Translations under genes and position numbers: made by a program | The notes under the pieces: model-generated | The model's input: the letters and a program-made list of their open reading frames with translations, nothing else | Told to the model about the DNA's origin: nothing | Databases searched by the model: none | Shown here: one piece after another, positions 6,527 to 18,489 of the stretch | Layout of the letters: each line of letters begins with the position of its first letter | Position numbering within the stretch: the stretch's first letter is position 1 | NCBI RefSeq assembly: GCF_014200375.1 | Contig: NZ_JACHBP010000001.1 | Location: forward strand, 1,364,001 to 1,428,000 | Source of the DNA: Terrimesophilobacter mesophilus | Lineage (GTDB): Bacteria; Actinomycetota; Actinomycetes; Actinomycetales; Microbacteriaceae | Length of the DNA: 64,000 nucleotides | Direction: 5' to 3'

Positions 6527-6599
6527 GGGGCCTTAGCTCAATTGGTAGAGCGCCTGCTTTGCAAGCAGGAGGTCAGGAGTTCGATTCTCCTAGGCTCCA
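6527..6599 (+). tRNA. tRNA-Ala (TGC anticodon)
   Basis: A 73-nucleotide cloverleaf. The acceptor stem GGGGCCT pairs with AGGCTCC (one G-T pair), the anticodon stem CCTGC/GCAGG closes the loop TTTGCAA, and the anticodon TGC is at 6560-6562. No CCA is encoded. The accessory island starts directly after it; I did not find a second copy of its 3' end that would mark an attachment site. Confidence 0.98.
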
Positions 6600-6753
6600 C
6601 TTCACGGGTTGTTCTCACTCGAACCCGATTTTGTTCTAACTTGAAATCAGCAAGCGACTGCCGGCGGGATTTCGGCCGGTTTTGTCGGTCCGGAAGTGAT
6701 CGGCGAGGCCGGATCTCCTTGCTGAAATGCAAAAAGCACGCCCTAGGCGGTGA

Positions 6754-6774
6754 TCGTTCCGTTTTCGGGAACGA
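6754..6774. terminator. Hairpin between tRNA-Ala and the island
   Basis: Arms TCGTTCC (6754-6760) and GGAACGA (6768-6774) form a perfect 7-base stem around a 7-base loop. It lies between the tRNA operon and the convergent end of the transposase-like gene, so it could stop transcription from either side. There is no clear T tract. Confidence 0.4.
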
Positions 6775-6822
6775 CAAACCGTCTTGGACGTGCTGAGGTG
6801 GTTCGGGTGTTGGAGTGCCTGG

Positions 6823-8655
6823 TTATGTTTGGGGCGGCGGGTCGACTCCGGGTGCAGCGGCTGGCAGTTCCTTCAGTGGCCACTTCGCACGGTAGGGGTT
6901 CTTGCCGTCGCGGTCGCGGCGGCGAACGGGTGCCTGTCGGGGCGCGGGCTTCCGCCGGGGCGTTGTGGAGGCATTGCGAACTTTCTCCTCGTGGAGGAAG
7001 GCGGCAATCTTCCGGATGTTCGCCGAGACGACGAGCACCGTCGTGACAACCTGCTGGGCGGTGAGCCCGTGAACCCGACGGCGGGAGGCGTCGTTGATGG
7101 CTTCGTAACCGGGTTCCTTGAGAAACGCGTTGAACGCCTCCGTGGTGTTCCGGTCGCGTCGATAGGTCATCGTGTGAATTTCTGTGCCGTAGGGGAGGTC
7201 TTGAGTCATCGCGGCATTGTCGGTTTCCGTGAACGTCACCGAGGTCTGGGTGCAAATCTTGTCGGGGACGAAGTCCCCGGGAAGCACCGTGTGAGGGCGG
7301 TCTTTGCCTTTGGGTGCTCGCGAGTGGAGCTCACGCAGTTCGCATTCGACGGTAGCGCTGGGACCAAGTGCGGGACACATCTTGGGGATACTCCCGTTCG
7401 CGTCGGGGCGTTCCTTGTCGCGGAGCTGGAAGTGCAGCCTTTCATCGATGCGCTTGATGTAGGTGGCTTCGTCGATGCGATGAGCTTTCGCGTCGATGGT
7501 CGCATCGGCAAGGCTCTTCGGGACGCCGGGGCAGAGGAAGAGCCCTTCGTTGTACAGCGCGCCCTTCTTCCCGCCTTTCGTGCCAATGTCCGGTTCCCTA
7601 TAGGTGGTCAGTGGCATGAAGCCGAGCCGCTTCATGGGGAGGCCCAGTGACTTGACCTTCAGGAGGGCGAAGTAGCCCATGTCGGTCGTGCAGCGGCCAG
7701 GCTGGTGCCCGCGGTCCCTGATGAGTCGGTGGATTCGCACGGTATCCACACCCAAGTGCTTGGCACCAGGCTGGCTAAGGGAGAAGCCCATGGCGATGAG
7801 GGGAACGTCGGCCGGCCCGCTGGCGTCATGCACTACGCGGACGGAAGTGTTGGCTGCCCACCCCCATACCCAGTCCATCTGTGGCTTCCCCGTGTTGTCG
7901 AAGTGGGTCATCGACTTCGTCGGGTACCAGTCGGCGTCCGGTTCAAGGGTTTCCTTGTCTTCCAACTCCCGATGCGTGTGCTTGTCGCGCGCCGAGCGGC
8001 CCCGGCGGCTCGGGGCGGGTAGCGGAGTCTGGTCAGCGCCGACGTCGATGACCTTCTGCCGGTCCCGAATGTGTTGGGGCTGCATCTGGAAGGTCATCTC
8101 AAGCCACATGCTCGTGTACTGGTCGAGTCGCTCGCGCATCTCTCGCTGACGTTCCGGGTCCCGTGAGGCGACGATTGCCTCGCGCTCGTCGCGGCCCATC
8201 AGGCGTCGCCTGTTCGGTACCGGATACGGGTCCATGAGGTCGACCATGCGGTGAAAGGCCGTCCAGGTGTTGTTGAGCCACCGCTTCGCTTGCACTGCGT
8301 GGTCTTCGCCGAAGGCACGTGAGGCATCTGGCAGGTCGAGATACTGGCGGGCGTCATCGGTGAGCCGCCGCCAAAGAATGTCCCGCATGCTCGTAATCCA
8401 GACTGGCGAATGCTCTGTGGCGAGCAGGTAGAGCGCGACCAGAACGTGGCGGTCGTTGATGGCGACGGTGTGACCACCGGCTGCTCGTGGGTCGCGGTCT
8501 GCCGCGCGCCACTCGGCGAGCTTGTCAAGAAGGCCCGTCGCAGTAACGCGCGCATCGGCCAGTTTCACGGCGTGAAGCCCGATGGAGGTGGAGCGGGCTC
8601 CGGCGCCGCGGGTTTCATCGTCGGTGAGCTCGATGCCCTGCAGGTCGTTGGTCAT
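6823..8655 (-). CDS. DDE transposase-like protein
   Basis: A 610-residue protein that looks like a diverged DDE (RNase H-fold) transposase. The C-terminal part NTTEAFNAFLKEPG followed by RRRVHGLTAQQ and SANIRKIAAFL matches the usual Glu-containing helix and the following region of IS1182/IS5-like transposases. TTDMGYFALLKVK, around residue 324, resembles the second catalytic Asp block, and the first Asp could be in the DVGADQTP or MDWVWGW stretch. The tail is basic (PRRKPAPRQAPVRRRDRDG). Its ATG overlaps the stop of the recombinase-fold gene (ATGA), so the two are translationally coupled. I see no flanking inverted repeats that delimit a simple insertion sequence. The family is inferred from motifs and may not be catalytically complete. 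Confidence 0.6.
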   Translation of the reverse strand: MTNDLQGIELTDDETRGAGARSTSIGLHAVKLADARVTATGLLDKLAEWRAADRDPRAAGGHTVAINDRHVLVALYLLATEHSPVWITSMRDILWRRLTDDARQYLDLPDASRAFGEDHAVQAKRWLNNTWTAFHRMVDLMDPYPVPNRRRLMGRDEREAIVASRDPERQREMRERLDQYTSMWLEMTFQMQPQHIRDRQKVIDVGADQTPLPAPSRRGRSARDKHTHRELEDKETLEPDADWYPTKSMTHFDNTGKPQMDWVWGWAANTSVRVVHDASGPADVPLIAMGFSLSQPGAKHLGVDTVRIHRLIRDRGHQPGRCTTDMGYFALLKVKSLGLPMKRLGFMPLTTYREPDIGTKGGKKGALYNEGLFLCPGVPKSLADATIDAKAHRIDEATYIKRIDERLHFQLRDKERPDANGSIPKMCPALGPSATVECELRELHSRAPKGKDRPHTVLPGDFVPDKICTQTSVTFTETDNAAMTQDLPYGTEIHTMTYRRDRNTTEAFNAFLKEPGYEAINDASRRRVHGLTAQQVVTTVLVVSANIRKIAAFLHEEKVRNASTTPRRKPAPRQAPVRRRDRDGKNPYRAKWPLKELPAAAPGVDPPPQT

Positions 8656-9551
8656 GGACGCACCACCCGACCGGTAATGGTGTCTCGGTAGTCGCCGGGC
8701 GATGTCGGGGGGAGGGCCTTGATGTAGGGGCTGAGCGAAACCGCCTCCGCGAGGCCAGCCAGATTCAATACGACATTGATTGGCGCGCCCGTCTGGAGCA
8801 GCTGCACAAGCCAGGTCGCCCGCAGCCTCGTGGGTTGTGGGGTCGATTCGGTGCGGTCGTCAAGGTGGAACTGGTGGATGACTCGTGCCGGGTATTGGGG
8901 AATCCGGTACCCGGCGAAGGCCCAATCGTCCTCGGTGCGGTCGTTGAGCCCGAGACGCAGAGTCTCCTGCCACTCGAGTCTGACGGGAACCAGTCGAGGA
9001 TGCCTGCCGCGGACGTTCACCTGGAGGTCGCGCGCTTCAGCGCGCACGTCGCCAACCTTGGCGAGCGCGATTTCCGCCGCGCTCAAGCCAGCACCGGCGC
9101 CAAGGCCCAGCAACACGCGTGCGTTCCCTCGGCGGGCGGCGTTGCTGCGGCGCACAGCTGAGCTGCGAAACTCGAGGAGCTCCTCCTGCGAGTACGGGTG
9201 TGCGGCACGAGAGTCGGGTCCATCCAGTTGCGATGTCTTCCTTCCAGTCAGGTGGGTGACAAGTCGATTCAGTCGTTGTGCGGTGTGGTACTGGTACCAG
9301 TCACTTTTCGAGCTCATGACCTGATTCACGAACCGGGCGACGTTGTGGTGGGTGAAGACGCCGGCGTCGATGTCGAGGCCTGCCGTCTGCCAGGTCCAGT
9401 GCACGAACGTCGATGCCGCTGCCAGGTATGCTCGGGCGACACTCACGGTCTTCGGGTTGAAGGAGCGCACTGCCTCCTTCACGAAACCGCCGATAGCAGC
9501 CCAATGGTCCGACGACATGACGGGCGTGTACCTCTCAATCGCACGGGCCAC
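8652..9551 (-). CDS. Tyrosine-recombinase-fold protein, copy 1
   Basis: A 299-residue protein with the layout of a tyrosine recombinase: an N-terminal helical SAM-like region, then GLGAGAGLSAAEIALAKVGDV (box I region), RLRATWLVQLLQTG (box II region) and LSPYIKALP (Tyr region). Only the box II Arg and the Tyr are kept: the box I Arg is Ser, and the expected His residues of box II and of the LGH motif are absent. I chose the GTG at 9551 (Val-Ala codons GTG GCC) because the paralog at 10376-11275 starts the same way and both are then exactly 900 bases. An 18-base palindrome lies 10 bases upstream. The gene is coupled to the transposase-like gene. It may be a regulator rather than an active recombinase. 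Confidence 0.7.
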   Translation of the reverse strand: MARAIERYTPVMSSDHWAAIGGFVKEAVRSFNPKTVSVARAYLAAASTFVHWTWQTAGLDIDAGVFTHHNVARFVNQVMSSKSDWYQYHTAQRLNRLVTHLTGRKTSQLDGPDSRAAHPYSQEELLEFRSSAVRRSNAARRGNARVLLGLGAGAGLSAAEIALAKVGDVRAEARDLQVNVRGRHPRLVPVRLEWQETLRLGLNDRTEDDWAFAGYRIPQYPARVIHQFHLDDRTESTPQPTRLRATWLVQLLQTGAPINVVLNLAGLAEAVSLSPYIKALPPTSPGDYRDTITGRVVRP

Positions 9552-9561
9552 GAGACCATGG

Positions 9562-9579
9562 TGGTTATTAGAATAACCA
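9562..9579. promoter_or_regulatory. 18-bp palindrome upstream of recombinase-fold copy 1
   Basis: The sequence TGGTTATTAGAATAACCA has perfect 8-base arms around AG. It lies 10 bases upstream of the chosen GTG. A near-identical palindrome sits at the same offset upstream of the paralog (11287-11304). It probably is an operator overlapping the -10 region, or less likely a recombination core site. Confidence 0.65.
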
Positions 9580-9613
9580 GTGTCAAGCTCACCACTGACA
9601 TTGGGCTCGAGGC

Positions 9614-9629
9614 GGCTCATGCCTGAGCC
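9614..9629. promoter_or_regulatory. GGCTCA inverted repeat in the divergent gap
   Basis: GGCTCA (9614-9619) and TGAGCC (9624-9629) form an inverted repeat, and GGCTCA occurs again at 9651-9656, directly at the start codon of the HTH gene. This could be an operator for that regulator. Confidence 0.3.
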
Positions 9630-10031: not shown

Positions 10032-10379
10032 GTGACTACTGCCCGCTTTCGCCCTCGCGATTGTGCCAGGACCCCGGCCGCCTTCGGATACTCGAGGGAG
10101 ATCAGGTGGGCAGACGAGTCAGGTGCCAGCGACGACCGTCTCGATCAGATCGGCACAGCGAAGCTCCAGCACGAGTTCGCCTACCGGATCCGGGATGCTC
10201 TCGCCGCCCGCGACCTCACCGTGAAAGATTTCGCAGAGATGGAGGGACAGGACTACTTTCGCTGGCGCCGCCTGCTTCGCGGCGAGATCATCATGCGACT
10301 GGAGGACGTCACCCGGGTGGAGCGTTCCCTGGAGCTGCGGCTGGTCTCGGAGCACCGATATGGCAGCCGAGAGGACTAA
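10032..10379 (+). CDS. Small HTH-like protein 2
   Basis: A 115-residue protein whose C-terminal half (YRIRDALAARDLTVKDFAEM, then YFRWRRLLRGE) has the look of a phage-type XRE helix-turn-helix; the N-terminal half is basic without a recognised domain. GTG start at 10032, preceded by inverted repeats. It converges with recombinase-fold copy 2: the stop codons overlap by 4 bases (10376-10379). By position it is the regulator partner of that second copy, mirroring HTH gene 1 and copy 1. Confidence 0.6.
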   Translation: MTTARFRPRDCARTPAAFGYSREIRWADESGASDDRLDQIGTAKLQHEFAYRIRDALAARDLTVKDFAEMEGQDYFRWRRLLRGEIIMRLEDVTRVERSLELRLVSEHRYGSRED

Positions 10380-11275
10380 AGGCCACAGCCACGAAGCGCT
10401 GCCCGGGCGTTGTCGGGATCGACTTCGGGCACGTACTTGACGTAACGGGCGAGCGCCTCCAGCGACTGCACCCCGGCCGCGCGCAGCAGGGGCACGACGT
10501 GTACCCCGCTGGTGAGGTGATGCACAATCCAGGTCGAACGCATCCTAGGCGTTTGTGGCGTCTCCTCAGTGGTACCCGACCAGTAAATGAAGTTGGTGAT
10601 CACATTCTTGTAGACCTTGGTTCGCCCCGGCAGAAACGCCCAGTCGGTGCTGCGATGCTCTTTCACAAAGGTGATCAGAGCGGGCTCCCATTCATGCAAC
10701 AGGGGGACTGCCCTCGGCCGGTCGCCCCTGATCTCCACCAAAACCCCGCGATCGTCGAGGCGGATGTCGCCAACCCGCAGATTCGTGATCTCCCGCGCGG
10801 CCAGGCCGGCGCCGAAGCCAAGGGACAGCAACACTTCGGCATTGACCCGGCGATCGTGTGGCGACTGGGTGGCCGCCCAACTCTTGAACGAGGCCAGCTG
10901 TTCATGCGTGTAAGGGGCGAGTGCTTCGGGTAGGCCAATCGGTCTCATCCGAGGAGGCATGACCTTCGGGCCGAGCAGGAATTCGGCCATCCTCAGCAAC
11001 TGAGATCGTCTGGTGGTTCGCCCGGAGTTTGTGTAATGGGCGAGACCCTCGGCGACAAACCGCTCGATCGTGTGACGACGGAAGATGACATCTCGCTCCA
11101 ACGGCAAACCTGCCGTCTGCCACGCCCAGAGGGTAAGCCCGGTCGCGGCACGCAAGAGTTCTCCCTGCCGGTACGGAATGGCGGGTCCGGCCTCCTCGAC
11201 AGCAGTCGAAATGAAGTCGCCGATCTCGTTCCAATAGGGCGCCGCCACTTTTGGCGGTTCAAGATTTACGGCCAC
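10376..11275 (-). CDS. Tyrosine-recombinase-fold protein, copy 2
   Basis: A 299-residue paralog of the protein at 8652-9551. Shared landmarks are WAWQTAGL (WTWQTAGL in copy 1), LGFGAGLAAREITNLRVGDI, DWAFLPG, TPQTPRMRSTWIVHHLTSG and LARYVKYVP. As in copy 1, the box II Arg and the Tyr are present, but the box I Arg at its usual place and the box II and box III His residues are missing. The GTG at 11275 has a strong ribosome site (GGAGG five bases upstream) and makes both paralogs the same length; the longer in-frame reading upstream would run through the palindromic promoter. It is divergent from the four-domain/phosphoesterase operon. Confidence 0.7.
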   Translation of the reverse strand: MAVNLEPPKVAAPYWNEIGDFISTAVEEAGPAIPYRQGELLRAATGLTLWAWQTAGLPLERDVIFRRHTIERFVAEGLAHYTNSGRTTRRSQLLRMAEFLLGPKVMPPRMRPIGLPEALAPYTHEQLASFKSWAATQSPHDRRVNAEVLLSLGFGAGLAAREITNLRVGDIRLDDRGVLVEIRGDRPRAVPLLHEWEPALITFVKEHRSTDWAFLPGRTKVYKNVITNFIYWSGTTEETPQTPRMRSTWIVHHLTSGVHVVPLLRAAGVQSLEALARYVKYVPEVDPDNARAALRGCGL

Positions 11276-11286
11276 AATGTCCTCCG

Positions 11287-11304
11287 TGGTTATTATAATC
11301 ACCA
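11287..11304. promoter_or_regulatory. 18-bp palindromic operator in a bidirectional promoter
   Basis: TGGTTATTATAATCACCA matches the 9562-9579 palindrome at 16 of 18 positions and lies 11 bases from the GTG of recombinase-fold copy 2. It contains TATAAT on both strands (plus strand 11294-11299, minus strand 11292-11297), so one palindrome covers the -10 boxes for the leftward recombinase-fold gene and the rightward operon. A TTGCCG -35 candidate lies 16 bases from the minus-strand -10. Confidence 0.65.
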
Positions 11305-11360
11305 CAATGAGATCGGCAACCACCGTTGGTTCGAACGAGAGGAAGAACGTGGAGACACTA

Positions 11361-11654
11361 ATGGACAGTATTGGCGGGAGGTACGAGGTCACGACTGCGT
11401 CGTCCAGCTATTTGATCGACCTGGATCGACAGGTCATCAGGCGTTTGCCTCGTACTGGTAGCCCGGAAGGTTCGTTGCTGCGTCGCGACGACGAACTGAT
11501 CACTCTGCTCGAGGTCATTGAGTGTTCCGTCGGTCGCCGCATGATCCTGTTGCTCGATCTGCACGTGTTCGGAGTCCCTTTCACGGCACGATTTGCCACC
11601 CAGGTGCTCTCTATTGATCCGGTTGCCTCACCCGGAGTGGAGGCCGCACAATGA
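11361..11654 (+). CDS. Unknown small protein, stand-alone copy of a repeated domain (copy A)
   Basis: A 97-residue protein of no recognised family. It is one copy of a domain that occurs four times in this operon: GGRYEVTT, then YLIDLDRQVIRRLPR, then LLEVIECSVG. The others are the C-terminus of the next protein and the genes at 12795 and 13115. The ATG at 11361 has GGAG six bases upstream. An ATG at 11307, seven bases after the plus-strand TATAAT, could instead give a leaderless, longer product. The stop overlaps the next start (ATGA), so it is coupled to the phosphoesterase gene. No signal peptide or membrane segment is seen. Confidence 0.7.
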   Translation: MDSIGGRYEVTTASSSYLIDLDRQVIRRLPRTGSPEGSLLRRDDELITLLEVIECSVGRRMILLLDLHVFGVPFTARFATQVLSIDPVASPGVEAAQ

Positions 11655-12802
11655 CGCCCCCCATCACACTTCCGACCTTGTCAACGGCGCGCCTGATCGG
11701 CCTCGTCGGTGACACCCACGGTGACATGGAGCACATGTTGATCGTCTCGGAGACGATGTGGAAGCGCGGAGTTTCAGTGCTGCTGGTGCTCGGCGATTTC
11801 GGATTCATCTGGCCACGCCACAACTGGGACAACGATCTCGACAAGCTCAGCAAGAGGCTCACACAGCGTGGGCAGATGCTCTACTGGCTCGACGGAAACC
11901 ACGAAGACTTCGCTACTCTTTTCCGCAAGTTCCCGGTATCCGACGATGGCCTACGTCGGCTGCGGCCAAACATCATCCACCTGCCCCGCGGGTACCGCAC
12001 TCCACTGACGTTCGGCCGGACTCTGGCCGTCTTGGGTGGCGCGAACTCGATCGACGCCCACCATCGAGAGCTCGACAGCACATGGTGGCTCGAGGAACAA
12101 ATCTCCGATGACGATCTCGAGAAACTCGGCCACGAACACGCCGATGTGATGCTCGGCCATGACGCCCCCATACCCCTGCCGGGCCTGGACGCCTCGCTAG
12201 CGAAGGCCGACCATTACTGGCCGGCGGAGATGCTCGCCTACGCGGCTGCCGGACGCCAGAAGTTCACGGATGGCTTCCTGCAGGTCCGCCCGAGCCTTTA
12301 CTTCGGTGGCCACTACCACCAATACATTGACGAGAACGTCACCTACGGAGAAGCCGAAGCTGCCTTCGAGACCCGGGTGATCCTGCTGGGAATGAACAGC
12401 TCGAACACCCTGAGCCAGGCCGTGCTCCACCTCCAGAACCTGGAGGTCGAAGCCTTTGCCCGCAACGACACGACCGTGACCCGACTCACCGGCGCCGAAT
12501 CGGGCCTCTGGCAGGTGCGCACGCGCGATAGTACCCATCGGTTCGACCTTGATGCTCGGACTGTCGAGCGCCGACCCGGCCCCAACGCGCTACACCCCAA
12601 CATTCAAGACGTGCGCCGGCTACGCTCCATCAGCGTCTGCGAGGTAGGTGAGCGGGGGTTTTGGACTTTCCCCCCGGATGACGTGTCGGTCGATTACCTC
12701 TGGACCAACAGCTCTGTCGTCGAACGCGTCGAACGACTCCAGCCCGAAGAACGGACCACTCCAACGAATGCAGGCCAGACGAAGGCGGGCGACGATGACT
12801 GA
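11651..12802 (+). CDS. Calcineurin-like metallophosphoesterase with C-terminal repeated domain (copy B)
   Basis: A 383-residue protein. Residues about 15-250 are a metallophosphoesterase: GDTHGD (near 20), LGDFGF (near 47), DGNHED (near 83), MLGHDAP (near 170) and FGGHYHQ (near 220) are the full set of two-metal ligands, so the enzyme is probably active. Substrates of this family range from nucleotides to nucleic acids and phosphoproteins and cannot be told here. Residues about 281-363 are copy B of the repeated domain (SGLWQVRTRDSTHRFDLDA, then TVERRPGPN, then VGERGFWTF), otherwise seen alone in neighbouring genes. It overlaps the upstream gene by 4 bases and the downstream one by 8, in one operon. 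No secretion signal is seen, so it is probably cytoplasmic. Confidence 0.85.
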   Translation: MTPPITLPTLSTARLIGLVGDTHGDMEHMLIVSETMWKRGVSVLLVLGDFGFIWPRHNWDNDLDKLSKRLTQRGQMLYWLDGNHEDFATLFRKFPVSDDGLRRLRPNIIHLPRGYRTPLTFGRTLAVLGGANSIDAHHRELDSTWWLEEQISDDDLEKLGHEHADVMLGHDAPIPLPGLDASLAKADHYWPAEMLAYAAAGRQKFTDGFLQVRPSLYFGGHYHQYIDENVTYGEAEAAFETRVILLGMNSSNTLSQAVLHLQNLEVEAFARNDTTVTRLTGAESGLWQVRTRDSTHRFDLDARTVERRPGPNALHPNIQDVRRLRSISVCEVGERGFWTFPPDDVSVDYLWTNSSVVERVERLQPEERTTPTNAGQTKAGDDD

Positions 12803-13118
12803 GCCGGAAGCATCCAGCCCCGACCAAGCTCCTACGACCGCCACACCCCTGACGGGCGAGGAGGGCGGACTGTGGCGTGTCCACACCATCGGAAGTCTTC
12901 ATAGCTTCGACCTTGATGCGGGAACAGTGGAGCGCCTGCCTGGCGCTGGCGCAGCGGTCATCGACTTTCCGGGATCACATCCGCTTCTCGAAATCATCCA
13001 CTGCACCGTTGGGGCCGGTGGCTACTGGGCAATCGAGTCCGATGATCCCAGATTCAGCTATCTCGCGCACACAAGCTCCACGATCAGCCACATTGAGCGC
13101 GTCGAAAGGGACTCATGA
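12795..13118 (+). CDS. Unknown small protein, copy C of the repeated domain
   Basis: A 107-residue protein made of a short polar N-terminus and copy C of the repeated domain: EGGLWRVHTIGSLHSFDLDA, then TVERLPG, then VGAGGYWAI and a C-terminal ISHIERV. The best match in the window is the C-terminus of the phosphoesterase directly upstream, with which it overlaps by 8 bases. Its stop overlaps the start of copy D (ATGA). It may bind or regulate the phosphoesterase; that is inference from shared sequence and coupling only. Confidence 0.65.
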   Translation: MTEPEASSPDQAPTTATPLTGEEGGLWRVHTIGSLHSFDLDAGTVERLPGAGAAVIDFPGSHPLLEIIHCTVGAGGYWAIESDDPRFSYLAHTSSTISHIERVERDS

Positions 13119-13411
13119 ACCAGGTCGCGGGACTCAAAGGTGACGAAGGCGGGCGTTGGCGAATCCGGACCCAGCGCAGCTCGTAACTGGTGGATCTCGA
13201 TGCCATGACGATCACGAGGATTCCGGGGCCGAATTCGTCGTCCTCGATCAACGACTGCGAAAGGCCACTCGGCAGTCTGGAAAAGTACAGGGTCGGAGCA
13301 ACCGGGTACTGGACTATGCGCGCTGGTGCGGACTCCGACATGGTTGAGTACTTCTGGCAGTTCTCCACCGAAATACGGAGTATCGAACGGCTATCCGACG
13401 AGAACAGCTGA
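13115..13411 (+). pseudogene. Copy D of the repeated domain, interrupted by an in-frame TAA
   Basis: An ATG at 13115 overlaps the stop of copy C. The frame reads EGGRWRIRTQRSS, then TAA at 13184-13186, then continues in the same frame as LVDLDAMTITRIPGPN, VGATGYWTM and IRSIERLSDENS to 13411. Both halves align without a gap to copies A to C. The stop falls where copy A has Tyr (SSSYLIDLD), so a TAC or TAT codon changed to TAA explains it. The downstream part has a GTG at 13190 but no clear ribosome site. It is either a recent nonsense mutant or a sequencing error. Confidence 0.65.
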
Positions 13412-13472: not shown

Positions 13473-14021
13473 TCACCAGGTCTTTGTCGAAGGGGGGCAG
13501 ACATCTGTCGGACCCATGAGCTTCCCGTCGCGCTCTGTCGTCGCGGCCCCCTCGGTCGGCTCCCATAGGATCCTTTCTCCGCTCCGCTTATAGTCGGAAA
13601 CGAAGACGTCGAAGGACGGGGGGTAGCCGCTGACTAAGCCGTTCTCCGTAAGACAGTCATACTGCGAGATCCTCGCGTCGTAGCGCTTTCGGAGTTCAGA
13701 CTCCGATAGGTCAGAGATTTTCGGCTCCCCGATCTGTTTGGTGCATTTATCGGTGGCTGCCTCCAGTTCCTCCCTCGTGGTTTCACGATTGTCGACGAGA
13801 AATCCTGCCTCGGGATCACCGGGAGGAAGATCCGCCGTTTTGATCCCTTCGTCCTCAAGGCAAGCGCGCTTCAGAACCATGTATTCCTCTGGAGTACCTT
13901 CGAAAACGCGGGTGCCCGAAGGTGAGGGCTCTATCGACTCGACCGGTGGCAGGGTCGCGCATCCAGCTAAAAGAACCAGTTCAACTGCAAGCGCGACCCC
14001 GCCGAGATACCGGCGTCTCAT
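13473..14021 (-). CDS. Lipoprotein A, paralog of lipoprotein B
   Basis: A 182-residue secreted lipoprotein: the N-terminus is basic then hydrophobic and ends in the lipobox LAGC (Cys21). The mature part is not a known enzyme. It is clearly paralogous to the product of 15155-15709: FEGTPEEYMVL/FHGTPAEWSLL, CLEDEGIKTADLP/CLEDNGLTTADLP, and GPTDVCPPSTKTW/GPTDICPRDTSTW at the C-terminus. It is coupled to secreted protein A (stop and start overlap by 4 bases at 14018-14021). By analogy with bacteriocin loci it might protect the producer or help export, but nothing in the sequence proves this. Confidence 0.8.
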   Translation of the reverse strand: MRRRYLGGVALAVELVLLAGCATLPPVESIEPSPSGTRVFEGTPEEYMVLKRACLEDEGIKTADLPPGDPEAGFLVDNRETTREELEAATDKCTKQIGEPKISDLSESELRKRYDARISQYDCLTENGLVSGYPPSFDVFVSDYKRSGERILWEPTEGAATTERDGKLMGPTDVCPPSTKTW

Positions 14022-14371
14022 CCGTGGGTCAGGCAGGATGGCACCCCATGTGCGCTAGTCGCCCCGCTGGTCCACCAATTGCCGCCACCAATTTGGGGTC
14101 CCCCAGTAGTGTTCATTGCTACGCGAGATCGGGTCCCACCCGAGGCATACACATAGTTGTAGTACGTTCCTGGCGGAGAAATCACAGTCTGGCCCCCAGT
14201 TGTGGCAGTGAGCCATCCGAAGAGCTCACCGCAGCCACGGACCCCCGAGTTGGTTACCAGAGCCGAGGCAGATATTGGAAGTGCTAGTGCAAGCACCAGC
14301 GCACCGACACCGGCCGCGGCCGCGGCCGCACTCCTCATTCCCGAGTGCTTTGAGTTGCTTCTATTTCTCAT
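14018..14371 (-). CDS. Small secreted protein A
   Basis: A 117-residue protein with a basic N-terminus, a long Ala/Leu hydrophobic stretch and a signal peptidase site after SASA, leaving a mature protein of about 80 residues. The mature part has two Cys, one near each end (RGCGELFGW and PSCLTHG), and Gly/Thr/Tyr-rich middle sequence (SPPGTYYNYVYASGGTRS). The ATG at 14371 has AAGGGA nine bases upstream. It is paralogous to secreted protein B, which is transcribed in the opposite direction 224 bases away. No known family was recognised; size, disulfide pattern and exporter context make a secreted toxin or bacteriocin possible. Confidence 0.75.
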   Translation of the reverse strand: MRNRSNSKHSGMRSAAAAAAGVGALVLALALPISASALVTNSGVRGCGELFGWLTATTGGQTVISPPGTYYNYVYASGGTRSRVAMNTTGGPQIGGGNWWTSGATSAHGVPSCLTHG

Positions 14372-14595
14372 GTCTGAATCCCTTTGATGAAGTATCGGCT
14401 TACATGGCGCGAACGTTACCACCACTATGGGGGTAGAACAACCATTTCCTTTTGCGACCGATATTGGTCCCAAACTTTGACCACTGCCAAAACCTCACAA
14501 GAAACAAAGTGTTGTAGTTTCACGTTTTGCGAGTTAGCGTCAAGCTATCGTCACAATCGTGGAGTCCTTGAATTGATGTTTAATTGGAGGGGGAA

Positions 14596-14928
14596 ATGGC
14601 TAGAAAGGTTCGACACGGATTAATGGCGACCGCAGGTGCAATAGGGGCACTCGCGCTCGCACTGGCAATACCAACTGCAGCCTCGGCTGCAGTCCACACC
14701 GGCACTTTGGGTTGTGGAGCAAAGTTCGGCTGGGTTACGGCGACTACCACCGGTTCCACGCAGATAACGCCCCCAGGAAGCAGCTGGACGTATATCTATT
14801 CGACCGGAGGCACGCGGTCGGAGGTCGCCATGACCGCGAATCAAATGCCGAAGACCGGTGGCGGCTACTGGCAGGTCTACGCATCAATCAACGCCAGCGG
14901 TAGCCCCTACTGCTCAGCCTTTGGCTGA
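14596..14928 (+). CDS. Small secreted protein B
   Basis: A 110-residue protein with a signal peptide ending AASA and a mature part close to that of secreted protein A: GCGAKFGWVTATT, then ITPPGSSWTYIYSTGGTRS, and a second Cys near the end (SPYCSAFG). The ATG at 14596 follows GGAGGGGGAA, so expression could be high. It heads the rightward cassette of lipoprotein B, adaptor, ABC ATPase and permease, separated from them by 226 bases with no gene. It is the likely substrate, or effector, of that exporter, or it may pass the membrane by its own signal peptide and be handled by the complex afterwards. Confidence 0.78.
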   Translation: MARKVRHGLMATAGAIGALALALAIPTAASAAVHTGTLGCGAKFGWVTATTTGSTQITPPGSSWTYIYSTGGTRSEVAMTANQMPKTGGGYWQVYASINASGSPYCSAFG

Positions 14929-15154
14929 TTCGCATCGCAAAGTGGGTGACGGCGGCCGTTTTTCGCTGTGACTTCAGCCACGGAGGCCGCCGCCCCCGAT
15001 GCATGCGCCATCTTTGATGACGCCAGATGAGGGTGAAATTATCAGGGCTTCCTCATAGCTTTGGTGCGTAGCGTTTCTCACAGCCAAGGATCTTTGGGCG
15101 ACCAAGGGTGGTGGATCTGGTCAACACGGGGACAAAATAAGGAGTATAGGCACG
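14929..15154. other. Gap between secreted protein B and lipoprotein B
   Basis: 226 bases without a gene. It may hold a terminator or attenuator for secreted protein B and a second promoter for the exporter genes. The only clear element is the ribosome site AGGAG (15140-15144) before the GTG at 15155. Confidence 0.4.
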
Positions 15155-15709
15155 GTGAAGAACACAAGGCTTGGCTACTCCGTCGGTCTCGGCGTGCTGG
15201 TAATTTCAGTGCTCATGGCCCTTGTAGGTTGCACGAGCACTGCGCCGGCCCCTTCGCCGACGAATGAGGGGGCAAAGATCTTTCACGGCACCCCGGCGGA
15301 ATGGAGCCTGCTATTTCGCTCCTGTCTTGAAGACAATGGCCTGACGACGGCGGATCTGCCCGACGGCGATGCAAGCGGCTTCATGCTGTCCAACGATGGT
15401 GTAACCGAGGAGCGGCGCACCGAGGTGACAACCAAGTGCCACAGCGAGATCGGTGAGCCCCAAATGGAAGGCTTGAGCGACGACGAATTGCATCGACGGT
15501 ATGAGTCCCGGTTGGATCAGTTCCAGTGCCTGCTCAAGAATGATCTGATCAGCGGCTCTCCGATGAGCTTCGAGAAGTTTGTCGATGAATACAACCGCAG
15601 CGGCCAGAAGCAACTGTGGTCGCCAGACCAGGATGCTTCGACCGTAGAGCGGGACGGCATTCTGTATGGCCCCACAGATATTTGCCCCCGAGACACCAGC
15701 ACATGGTGA
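15155..15709 (+). CDS. Lipoprotein B
   Basis: A 184-residue lipoprotein with lipobox LVGC (Cys26), paralogous to lipoprotein A. Conserved blocks are CLEDNGLTTADLP, a central acidic region with four mature Cys residues, and the C-terminal GPTDICPRDTSTW. The GTG at 15155 is preceded by AGGAG. It overlaps the start of the adaptor gene, so it belongs to the exporter operon. The role is unknown; an extracytoplasmic partner of the exporter or an immunity lipoprotein are both plausible. Confidence 0.8.
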   Translation: MKNTRLGYSVGLGVLVISVLMALVGCTSTAPAPSPTNEGAKIFHGTPAEWSLLFRSCLEDNGLTTADLPDGDASGFMLSNDGVTEERRTEVTTKCHSEIGEPQMEGLSDDELHRRYESRLDQFQCLLKNDLISGSPMSFEKFVDEYNRSGQKQLWSPDQDASTVERDGILYGPTDICPRDTSTW

Positions 15710-16755
15710 GCACCGAGCACCACAATCGGTGGCGGGTGCACGCGGCATGGGCACTCGCACTGTTGCTTGCAGTTGGAGCGGCGTCGTGGGCGACATCAGT
15801 CCTGGTGAACCCGAGTGGAGACCAGACCAAGCCAGAGGCGGCAGCTCCCAAGTACACTGCCGAAGTTGGGGAGATCGGAGTAACAACTTCCGTTCAGGCG
15901 AACGTTGTGTTTCAGGCAGGGCCTTCCGGCACTGCGGGGTTGTCGGGAACGATCACGTCGATCAACATCGAACCAGCTAAGCCGATCAATGCCGGTGATG
16001 TTCTCTTCACGATTGACCTGCGGCCGGTAGTGGTTGCGAAGGGCGCAACCCCCGCATTCCGAGACCTCTCCTATGGAGTTAGAGGCCCCGACGTACGTCA
16101 ACTGCGTCAGTTTCTCGGTCTCACGGATGCGGATGTCTTCGACGGAGCCACGTGGCGCGCCGTGGCAGCGTGGCAGAAGAAGCTCGGGGTCACTGCAGAT
16201 GGCATCGTGCATCGCGGCGACATCCTCTTCCTCAGGTCGCTACCTACCCGTGGCTACCCTTTGGAGGGAATCGAGGTCGGGTCGCCCATCATGGCGGGAC
16301 AGGCAGCGGTGGCGACTGTGCTTGAACGCCCCCTCGTAACGGTTGCCGCGGATGGGACAGGTGCGAAGTTGGCGGCCGGGATGGCGGCCAGCATGACCGT
16401 CGACGGTGTGGAGTACAAGGGCGTCCTGTCGGGGCCATCGCGCGGAACGGACGGGCTTCTCAGCTACAGCCTCACGGGTGAGGATGGATTGTCGGTCTGC
16501 ACGGCGGAATGCGCCATCGGCTTCCCCGTTACGGGAGGACAGATCTCAGTCGAGGTTGATCTCGTCCCCCGTGTGAGCGGAGTCGTGATACCTGATTCGG
16601 CGATCGCAATATTGCCGGATTCATCTACGTCCGTACGAGTGGTGGGCGGGAAGCTCATCGCCGTGAAGGTTGTCGCGAGTGGTCAGGGCCTATCGGTAGT
16701 GGAGGGACTGGAGGCAGGTACCGTCATCGAATTGTTCGCGGACGACAAGTCGTGA
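15703..16755 (+). CDS. Peptidoglycan-binding HlyD/MacA-like adaptor
   Basis: A 350-residue membrane-anchored adaptor. After one N-terminal transmembrane helix comes a lipoyl/barrel-sandwich half (VGEIGVTTSVQANVVF, ITSINIEPAKPINAGDVLFTIDLRP). In place of the usual coiled-coil hairpin it has a peptidoglycan-binding domain (YGVRGPDVRQLRQFLGL, then TWRAVAAWQKKLGVTADG), followed by the second half of the sandwich and a beta-barrel. Such proteins link an ABC pump to the cell wall in actinobacteria. The ATG at 15703 overlaps the lipoprotein stop; a GTG at 15706 is an alternative. The next gene overlaps by 4 bases. Confidence 0.85.
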   Translation: MVSTEHHNRWRVHAAWALALLLAVGAASWATSVLVNPSGDQTKPEAAAPKYTAEVGEIGVTTSVQANVVFQAGPSGTAGLSGTITSINIEPAKPINAGDVLFTIDLRPVVVAKGATPAFRDLSYGVRGPDVRQLRQFLGLTDADVFDGATWRAVAAWQKKLGVTADGIVHRGDILFLRSLPTRGYPLEGIEVGSPIMAGQAAVATVLERPLVTVAADGTGAKLAAGMAASMTVDGVEYKGVLSGPSRGTDGLLSYSLTGEDGLSVCTAECAIGFPVTGGQISVEVDLVPRVSGVVIPDSAIAILPDSSTSVRVVGGKLIAVKVVASGQGLSVVEGLEAGTVIELFADDKS

Positions 16756-17402
16756 TCGAACTCACCGACCTCACCTTCGCATACTCGGTGGCGGACCCTA
16801 TCTTCGCCGGCCTCGACCATCGGTTTGAGCCGGGTACTTCTACTGCCTTGGTAGGTCGGTCGGGATCGGGTAAGTCGACTCTTCTCTATCTCATCGGACT
16901 CATGCTCAGCCCGACCTCGGGCAACATCGCCATCGACGGCATCGCCGCAGACGCTCTCGCCGACTGGCAACGTGCGGAGATGCGGGCGCGACTCATGGGG
17001 TTCGTATTCCAAGATGCGCTGCTCGACCCCGCTCGAAGCATCATCGACAATGTCCTTGAGGGCGCCCTCTATAACGATGTCGCAGGCGGAGACACCCGCG
17101 AAGAGGCCTTGGCATTGCTGTCCCGATTCGGCGTCACAGTCGACTCTGAGCGGAGACCGGGCCAACTCTCCGGAGGACAAGCGCAACGCGTAGCCCTCTG
17201 CCGGGCACTACTTGGCGAGCCGGCAATCGTGCTGGCTGATGAGCCGACGGGCAATCTCGATGACATGAGCGCCGACATCGTATGGGATGCCCTTCTCGGC
17301 TATGCGGCAGCCGGTGCGACCGTTGTGATTGCCACCCATGATCGACAGCGAGCTGCACTGTGCACAAGCATCGTGGAAGTGGGCCATGCCGATCCGGCCT
17401 GA
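16752..17402 (+). CDS. ABC transporter ATPase (MacB/LolD type)
   Basis: A 216-residue stand-alone ATPase with Walker [10 protein letters not shown], signature LSGGQAQR, Walker [13 protein letters not shown] and the H-loop [12 protein letters not shown] places it in the MacB/LolD/FtsE group that partners FtsX-like permeases. The GTG start overlaps the adaptor stop, and the permease start overlaps this gene by 17 bases, so the three form one unit. It powers the type VII-superfamily (mechanotransmission) ABC system with the genes beside it. Confidence 0.93.
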
Positions 17403-18489
17403 GCGTGCCATACGTGAGGCGGCCCGCAACGCCACGGCTCACCGCGCGACCACGATCATGCTCATCCTGGTGACGATGGCCATGACCACGGCAACGTTCA
17501 TTACGGCTGGACGCGCAGCCGCAGCCGAGGAGGCAGTGCTTCACAGCGTCGACAATGCCGGGCCACGCCTCATCGAGGTCACTATCGCCGAGCCCTCTCC
17601 AGGTGTCGATGTCAGCACCCTGGACCGGTTCAAGCACATCGACGGTGTCGAGTGGGTGCTGGGTCTTGGCCCTGCTCGCGACGTACGCTCAAGTGTCACC
17701 GGTGCCCGCGTCAACGTCGCGGCACGGGATCTCCTCAGTCCACTACCACCCGAGGTCACAATCGATCCCGGCCGTTCGCCCCGCCCCGGCGAGGCAATCA
17801 TCGGCGCCGACACTCAGCAGCGGCTCCAGCTCATCTACCCTTCCGGGGCCTTGTTGGATTCGGGTACGTCGCGTGCTGTCGTCGGAGCGTTCAGTGCATC
17901 CGGTGCGATTACGGACCTGGATCGGCTGGTTCTCATTCAACCGGGAGCAACTTCTGCACCCAGCCAGGCAACGCTGGTCTATTTACTCGCCGATCAGGCT
18001 GAGAATGTCGCTGGGATTGTCCGCGAAGTCCGCGCGCTGGCCGCAGTCAGCCCCGTCGACTCCCTCGTGGTTCGTACGGCACCAGAACTTGTGGAACTTG
18101 CGGCGGTTCTCTCCGGTGAGATCGGAGGACTCAGCCGGCAGCTCGCCCTCGGTGCGATTCTGGTCGGTGTCGTTCTTGTCGCCCTCACCATGACCCTTGC
18201 ACTCAGCAGTCGTCGTAGGGACTTCGGTCGTCGTCGAGCCCTCGGCGCATCTCGAAGTGCGCTCATCGCTCTCACACTTTTGGAAGCGGCTTTCCCGGTT
18301 GCCATCGGCGTGATCGTCGGCACTATCGGTGGGCTTACCGCCGTCGTGCTCTGGATGGGCACGGCGCCCCCGATCGGCTTTATTGTCGCGGCGGATCTAC
18401 TCATCGCGCTAACCGGCACCGCCGCCGCAATACCACCGGCAGCTCTCGCGGCAGCGCAGGATCCGGTCCGCATTCTGCGTGTGCCATGA
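17386..18489 (+). CDS. FtsX-like ABC permease
   Basis: A 367-residue permease of the MacB/FtsX type: one N-terminal transmembrane helix (about 25-45), a large extracytoplasmic domain (about 50-255), then three helices near the C-terminus, with LALSSRRRDFGRRRALGASRS between the second and third, the coupling region for the ATPase. It ends with AAAQDPVRILRV, the usual family ending. The start is the ATG at 17386. It completes the exporter encoded by the two genes upstream. Proteins of this group usually move substrate from the outer face of the membrane outward rather than across it. Confidence 0.9.
   Translation: MPIRPERAIREAARNATAHRATTIMLILVTMAMTTATFITAGRAAAAEEAVLHSVDNAGPRLIEVTIAEPSPGVDVSTLDRFKHIDGVEWVLGLGPARDVRSSVTGARVNVAARDLLSPLPPEVTIDPGRSPRPGEAIIGADTQQRLQLIYPSGALLDSGTSRAVVGAFSASGAITDLDRLVLIQPGATSAPSQATLVYLLADQAENVAGIVREVRALAAVSPVDSLVVRTAPELVELAAVLSGEIGGLSRQLALGAILVGVVLVALTMTLALSSRRRDFGRRRALGASRSALIALTLLEAAFPVAIGVIVGTIGGLTAVVLWMGTAPPIGFIVAADLLIALTGTAAAIPPAALAAAQDPVRILRVP

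Follow-up and report, generated by a model that had tools for sequence, protein, structure and literature searches.

Organization of the Locus

The window analyzed here is a stretch of 64,000 bases (1,364,001–1,428,000) of the single-contig, 2.41-Mb genome of Terrimesophilobacter mesophilus. As summarized in Table 1, it carries a cassette of four consecutive plus-strand frames, A to D, that share one domain; in B, this domain is fused to a phosphoesterase.

Table 1. Features in and around the cassette (positions are those of the window)
Feature	Position	Strand	Remarks
tRNA-Ala	6527–6600	+	ARAGORN; left flank of island
Genomic island	6601–31826	.	Beside tRNA-Ala; right edge ~31.8–32.4 kb
c3, DDE-type transposase-like	6823–8655	-	Invariant D207, D324, E505 in 11 relatives
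Tyrosine recombinase	8652–9620	-	Pfam Phage_integrase, 3.8e-6; 4-bp overlap with c3
HTH-like protein (cluster c4)	10032–10379	+	Recurs near the domain
Second tyrosine recombinase	10376–11392	-	Head to head with A; NCBIfam XerC-like, 6.9e-6, under curated cut-off
Copy A	11361–11654	+	Free A-type domain (domain HMM); alternative start 11349
B	11651–12802	+	Calcineurin-like phosphoesterase (~11684–12400) fused to C-type domain (~12467–12748)
Copy C	12795–13118	+	Free C-type domain
Copy D	13115–13411	+	C-type domain, broken by TAA 13184–13186

The original prediction, that these frames hold four related copies of one domain, was confirmed by pairwise comparison. In Smith–Waterman alignments against 1000 shuffles (with an X at the position of the stop codon of copy D), all six pairs were significant, and the observed score was never reached by a shuffle: Z was 36 for B–C, 28 for B–D, 23 for C–D, 11.1 for A–C, 10.9 for A–D and 6.5 for A–B. 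The shared motifs that had been listed are visible in the translations, except that copy C has IERV instead of IERL. The frames do overlap by a few bases, as had been noted (A/B by 4, ATGA at 11651; B/C by 8; C/D by 4). Copy D is homologous and in the predicted place, but the gene is not intact: read from 13115, it is open only after the internal stop (GTG 13190).

The start of copy A may be GTG 11349 instead of ATG 11361, because the window reads (V)ETLMDSIGG where relatives begin MKTLMDSTTG. Copy A is 62% identical to its counterpart in Cryobacterium, and the overlapping order A / phosphoesterase–C / C is also found in Cryobacterium tepidiphilum (L016), so the layout is no local accident.

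Next to the cassette lies what we take to be an ABC exporter set. The stretch at 13473–18489 presumably combines it with small secreted peptides of lactococcin-972-like appearance (14018–14473, minus strand; 14584–14928, plus strand) and two related lipoproteins (13473–14021, minus strand; 15155–15709, plus strand).

A Domain Placed by No Library

The domain had been proposed to belong to no known family, and profile searches with copies A to D and with 81 of the 99 copies we collected agree: Pfam, NCBIfam and PADLOC place none of the 81, matches being obtained by only one or two members, with a best Pfam value of 6.2e-4 (a single member) and a best PADLOC value of 0.024. Neither A, C nor the open part of D matched Pfam, NCBIfam, PADLOC or PHROGs, and a scan of 10 proteins with the PADLOC models, A to C and the open part of D included, gave no match at all. 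Against the sequences of solved structures, the best E value of the domain profile was 1.7. A literature search, largely confined to papers outside subscription, returned no description of this domain.

An AlphaFold2 model of copy C (pLDDT 79.9, from 7 rows) shows six strands. Searches with the fold gave no clear match (best E of 0.54 with Foldseek against the PDB and 0.18 against BFVD; VIA Z of 4.6). PH, Sm/Lsm and galectin-like folds were considered, and at VIA Z values of only 3–4.6 the similarities prove nothing.

With a domain profile built from 15 copies, we detected the domain in 40 of 398 genomes of the host family, spread over 23 of 85 genera, and in 6 of 396 genomes of the phylum, the source genome being counted in both sets. 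The same profile found it in none of the seven other genomes of the genus; together with the placement of the cassette in an island (see below), this bears out the accessory location originally proposed. A phage origin of the domain was rejected, as A and C matched none of 50,697 phage records and no viral contig. Among plasmid records, A had no match and C a single weak one.

Two Paralogous Types That Occur Together

We sorted 99 copies from 61 loci with two competing profiles (L114 standing also for its duplicate L115) and obtained 50 A-type and 46 C-type copies, with 3 unassigned. In a tree of 91 copies, in which few columns leave many forks open, the two types fell on opposite sides of one branch (support 73/87, found in 84% of bootstrap trees).

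Both types were present in 23 of the 24 multi-copy clusters (56 copies), as compared to a mean of 14.0 after shuffling, and none of 20,000 shuffles reached the observed count; when only one cluster per genus was retained, the figure was 15 of 16, reached in 56 of 20,000 shuffles. For these counts, the fragment cluster of L082 was left out and one unassigned copy in L094 was ignored. Such pairing, read from gene content, implies that an A-type and a C-type copy would form a heteromeric complex. Having four copies, as in the window, is incidental; the constant of multi-copy clusters is one type plus the other. The pairing is not absolute, since 33 clusters hold a single A (19) or a single C (14) whose own strand has no partner gene within 1.5 kb. 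Within clusters, 22 of 43 junctions overlap, and 30 either overlap or are at most 25 bases apart. The arrangement of free and fused domains, already pointed out for the window, recurs in relatives.

The Cassette Lies on a Mobile Island

In five same-genus regions used as empty sites, sequence homologous to the window from 31.8–33 kb onward comes after tRNA-Ala, separated from it by 38–49 bp in two regions and by 0.5–3.5 kb of other sequence in the other three. This comparison places the cassette inside an island of about 25 kb, with a GC content of 0.60 versus 0.67 for the rest. We found no convincing terminal inverted repeats at the island, and the tRNA-Ala 3′ end is not repeated elsewhere in the window.

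The c3 protein had no Pfam match apart from one chance match at 0.36; by eye, its invariant acidic residues would make it DDE-type. To place such genes in a wider context, we compared 52 host-family regions containing the domain with 40 control regions from the same genomes, using our own gene calling. Recombinase or transposase families were present in 30 of the 52 and in none of the 40 (Fisher p 3.7e-10), and c3 or TnsB in 23 and none, a contrast that is partly circular as these clusters were defined from the test regions. The c4 HMM matched 10 of 52 test regions and 0 of 40 controls.

In 13 of the 15 c3 loci scanned for tRNA genes (L121 was left out), c3 adjoins a tyrosine recombinase gene and its end lies 210–313 bp beyond a tRNA gene whose 3′ end points at it. 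These tRNAs are Ala, Leu, Pro or Met, and the loci are the window (6601–9620), L016, L070, L071, L077, L081, L085, L086, L088, L095, L098, L100 and L102; L082 and L083 are the two exceptions. The pair of genes looks like an element with two recombinase kinds that targets the side of tRNA genes. Domain elements of two genera adjoin tRNA-Met and a UPF0182-type gene (c19) in L081, L085, L088, L090 and L095, a site that we regard as an insertion hotspot.

The proximity of domain and recombinase genes, the frequency of c3 or TnsB in domain regions and the position of c3 elements beside tRNA genes could also mean that the A–C pair is an accessory factor of the mobile element, aiding integration, target choice or copy control instead of defense. 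We consider this unlikely, because the machineries that accompany the domain are of two unrelated kinds (tyrosine recombinase/DDE or TnsABC), 22 of the 52 domain regions contain none of the counted mobile genes, and a phosphoesterase would be an odd part of either machinery.

Neighbors of the Cassette and of Its Relatives

As an independent look, PADLOC models were run at E 1e-10 on two cluster lists of 148 proteins (134 of each scanned), covering 134 of 358 neighbors of at least 150 aa and 134 of 492 control proteins. Neighbors matched 258 models and controls 64, these being counts of overlapping models and not of proteins. Among the matches listed were type I restriction, IIG, DrmA, PglW, GajA, AbiU and mads for the neighbors, and mads, PD-T4-6, JetB and AriA for the controls. 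A type ISP restriction gene stands beside L022 (4.7e-98).

HTH proteins of cluster c9 occurred in 14 of 52 domain regions and 2 of 40 controls; Xre-MbcA-ParS_M (2.9e-4) and HTH_17 (1e-6) were each matched by single neighbors. By eye, the c9 and c20 proteins resemble MbcA/Xre antitoxins. Members of these two clusters adjoin the phosphoesterase in L024 (9811–10188), L086 (9019–9534) and L108 (9141–9530).

A small protein with a helicase-associated domain (PF03457; 1.7e-9 in L074) lies beside the domain in 22 of 52 regions and 0 of 40 controls, again a partly circular contrast with a cluster defined from the test regions; examples are L022:6176–6736, L074:9182–9793 and L024:11316–12026. Cluster c6, a protein of 150–180 aa, was found in 7 loci, including the 3′ side of the Cryobacterium cassette (L016:7418–7870), and the one member compared with Pfam had no match.

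The Phosphoesterase of Protein B

B matches Pfam Metallophos (PF00149; E 1.3e-7, 32.7 bits against a curated cut-off of 21.5) and PHROG 1649 (E 7.6e-29). Calcineurin-like metallophosphoesterases bind their metals through the motif set D-x-H, GD, GNH(D/E), H and GHxH, and in the window all of these are intact (GDTHGD, GD, GNHE, GHD and GHYH).

When an AlphaFold2 model of B (pLDDT 84, from 10 rows) was compared with known structures by VIA-align, the best match was the RNA lariat debranching enzyme Dbr1 (4pef; Z 16.8, rmsd 3.5, 220 residues aligned over residues 12–263), followed by Mre11, GpdQ and acid phosphatases at Z 14–15. On this model, Dbr1 leads generic phosphoesterases by a narrow margin. 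Foldseek put LpxH at the top (E 2.8e-8), and Dbr1 was absent among the sequence-profile matches of B.

The first place of Dbr1 would be compatible with RNA repair or counter-defense, in which the phosphoesterase would heal tRNA or other RNA ends broken in a conflict and A–C would be the RNA-binding part. HAD_SAK_2 proteins lie beside some relatives of the cassette (L023, 7.8e-9; L072, 1.4e-7; L085, 6.9e-6) and beside the phage Big4 homologue (4.2e-5), the scores for L085 and Big4 being under the curated cut-off; PMC7824862 describes Swiss-army-knife HAD phosphatases, as well as calcineurin-like ones, as taking part in RNA repair by phages. However, no ligase or kinase was recognized beside the cassette, and cluster c16, of HAD_SAK_2 type, has no member within ±7 genes of it, as judged from BLAST clustering only. 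This account appears distinctly improbable to us.

The Enzyme Is Optional, Recruited and Sometimes Apparently Dead

The phosphoesterase alone is far more widespread than the domain, with homologues in 288 phage and 25 plasmid records, all below 60% identity. Conversely, the phosphoesterase is missing from 45 of the 65 domain clusters (a sum of patterns; a few loci have one elsewhere), and nine of these are C–A or A–C pairs. In the 10 loci where phosphoesterase and domain are fused, the domain is invariably C-type.

In a tree of 32 phosphoesterases, from which three fragments (L024 3473, L081 7691 and L020) had been removed beforehand, the domain-linked enzymes formed a main lineage (support 88/90) and a second one (99/98), the latter nested among phage and plasmid enzymes that lack the domain. 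From this topology, the phosphoesterase seems to have been recruited at least twice. The number of fusions is uncertain: the fused state changes 4 times on the tree, with at least one change forced by well-supported branches.

To grade the enzymes, we scored each at the 25 columns where at least 90% of 29 intact phosphoesterases agree; the intact ones themselves keep 23–25. Four fusions that have lost catalytic motifs keep 16 (L073), 9 (L020), 8 (L081) and 5 (L085), the low scores of the last three reflecting gaps as well. The enzyme part of these four looks catalytically dead, which would mean that catalysis is not needed everywhere.

L081 and L085 also have neighbors in common, and their frames are open. 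Their dead enzyme parts are 39% identical over 233 codons (dN 0.60, dS 1.77), while their domain parts are 65% identical over 99 codons (dN 0.28, dS 0.88). In the intact pair formed by the window and Cryobacterium, the order is reversed, with 62% identity for the enzyme (dN 0.29, dS 2.03) and 55% for the domain (dN 0.42, dS 2.14). All these values are rough, being simple counts in which dS is close to saturation. They nevertheless speak against the cassette being debris of a decaying island, with no present function, as the stop in copy D, the 8 of 99 copies that do not reach 80 aa and the in-frame stops of several others could suggest: between window and Cryobacterium dN is far below dS, and even the dead pair stays open at a dN/dS of about 0.3. 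We regard decay as very improbable.

Two further observations concern the C-type domain. In L077 (9289–9957) and L079 (7440–8108), it runs on into an HTH-like protein, the sole profile support for this extension being an HTH_17 match in L077 (E 0.0098). In genome G342, the same phosphoesterase and a gene with a double C-type domain are found both on the main contig (L114) and on a second contig of 449,692 bp (L115), suggesting recent movement.

The gene content bears directly on a toxin–antitoxin scheme, in which the phosphoesterase would be a toxic nuclease and A and the free C antidotes binding the fused C domain. A small upstream gene with a 4-bp overlap, the mobile location, the patchy spread and the recurrence of MbcA/Xre-like and HTH genes nearby are all compatible with such a scheme. 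Toxin and antidote genes should, however, be inherited together, whereas most domain clusters have no phosphoesterase; the nine C–A or A–C pairs would have nothing to neutralize in their cluster, dead phosphoesterases are kept in frame with the domain, and A and C match no phage record, whereas related phosphoesterases occur in 288. An enzyme acting as the toxin is thus a doubtful proposition. Since some lineages keep the pair with no enzyme or with a dead one, our results suggest that the A–C pair, not the enzyme, is the core of the system.

Proposed Function

We infer that the cassette is a two-subunit module built from an undescribed β-domain family, in which an A-type and a C-type copy would form a heteromeric complex. 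Here, the C-type subunit is joined to a phosphoesterase that looks active from its motifs. The pairing statistics, the consistent C-type fusion and the coupled frames point to a complex that acts on the phosphoesterase or works through it: A, and the free C as well, would bind the enzyme and either set its target or hold it inactive, the overlapping frames allowing the subunits to be made in a fixed ratio. The most likely task of the enzyme, in conflicts with phages or rival mobile elements, would be to cut or heal nucleic acid at phosphodiester or phosphate ends. The substrate is the weakest step of this mechanism; nucleic acid is favored on account of the fold similarity of B to Dbr1 and Mre11 and the HAD_SAK_2 neighbors of relatives. 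Islands mobilized by tyrosine-recombinase/DDE or Tn7-like machinery would carry the module as cargo. To this reading, in which an island-borne A–C complex steers a nucleic-acid phosphoesterase or keeps it in check in conflicts with phages or other elements, we assign a probability of roughly 40%.

A possible alternative, which we entertain tentatively, is that A–C is a conflict system in its own right, the complex serving as sensor or effector and riding on tRNA-side and Tn7-like islands. It would have repeatedly captured phosphoesterases, some of them now dead scaffolds, and possibly DNA-binding modules.

The original interpretation is supported in part: the accessory location stands and a conflict-related role is probable, but an A–C module with an optional enzyme fits better than a simple toxin with antidotes, as A–C pairs devoid of phosphoesterase and dead fusions that retain the domain weaken the case for the enzyme as toxin.

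If the directed-phosphoesterase reading is true, the module belongs to a two-subunit family that has gone unrecognized and serves as a marker of mobile cargo within a single family of the Actinomycetota. The same domain pair exists in three settings (no enzyme, an active-looking enzyme, a dead enzyme), which amounts to a built-in experiment on what the enzyme contributes, and the dead-enzyme fusions caution against phosphoesterase-based names for such loci.

Comparison with Known Systems

Phosphoesterases on defense-rich islands are known in kind. What is new here is the A/C domain pair, which is undescribed within the literature and libraries searched.

The cassette resembles toxin–antitoxin modules in having small overlapping genes on a mobile island, but in its family the enzyme is optional or dead and there are two paralogous types of partner. 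With the anti-phage systems of PADLOC-DB, the likeness lies in the defense genes that recur among the neighbors of relatives; none of the four frames, with D represented by its open part, is matched by a PADLOC-DB model, and even across the 81 copies the best value remains 0.024.

Dbr1, as the best VIA-align match, is similar in fold to the model of B; this modeled likeness is one of fold only, with other phosphoesterases close behind, and we know of no Dbr1 that carries a C-type domain. The closest kinship is with the calcineurin-like metallophosphoesterases at large (PF00149; PHROG 1649), which have the fold and the metal motifs in common with B, whereas B has a C-type domain fused to it and A and C encoded alongside.
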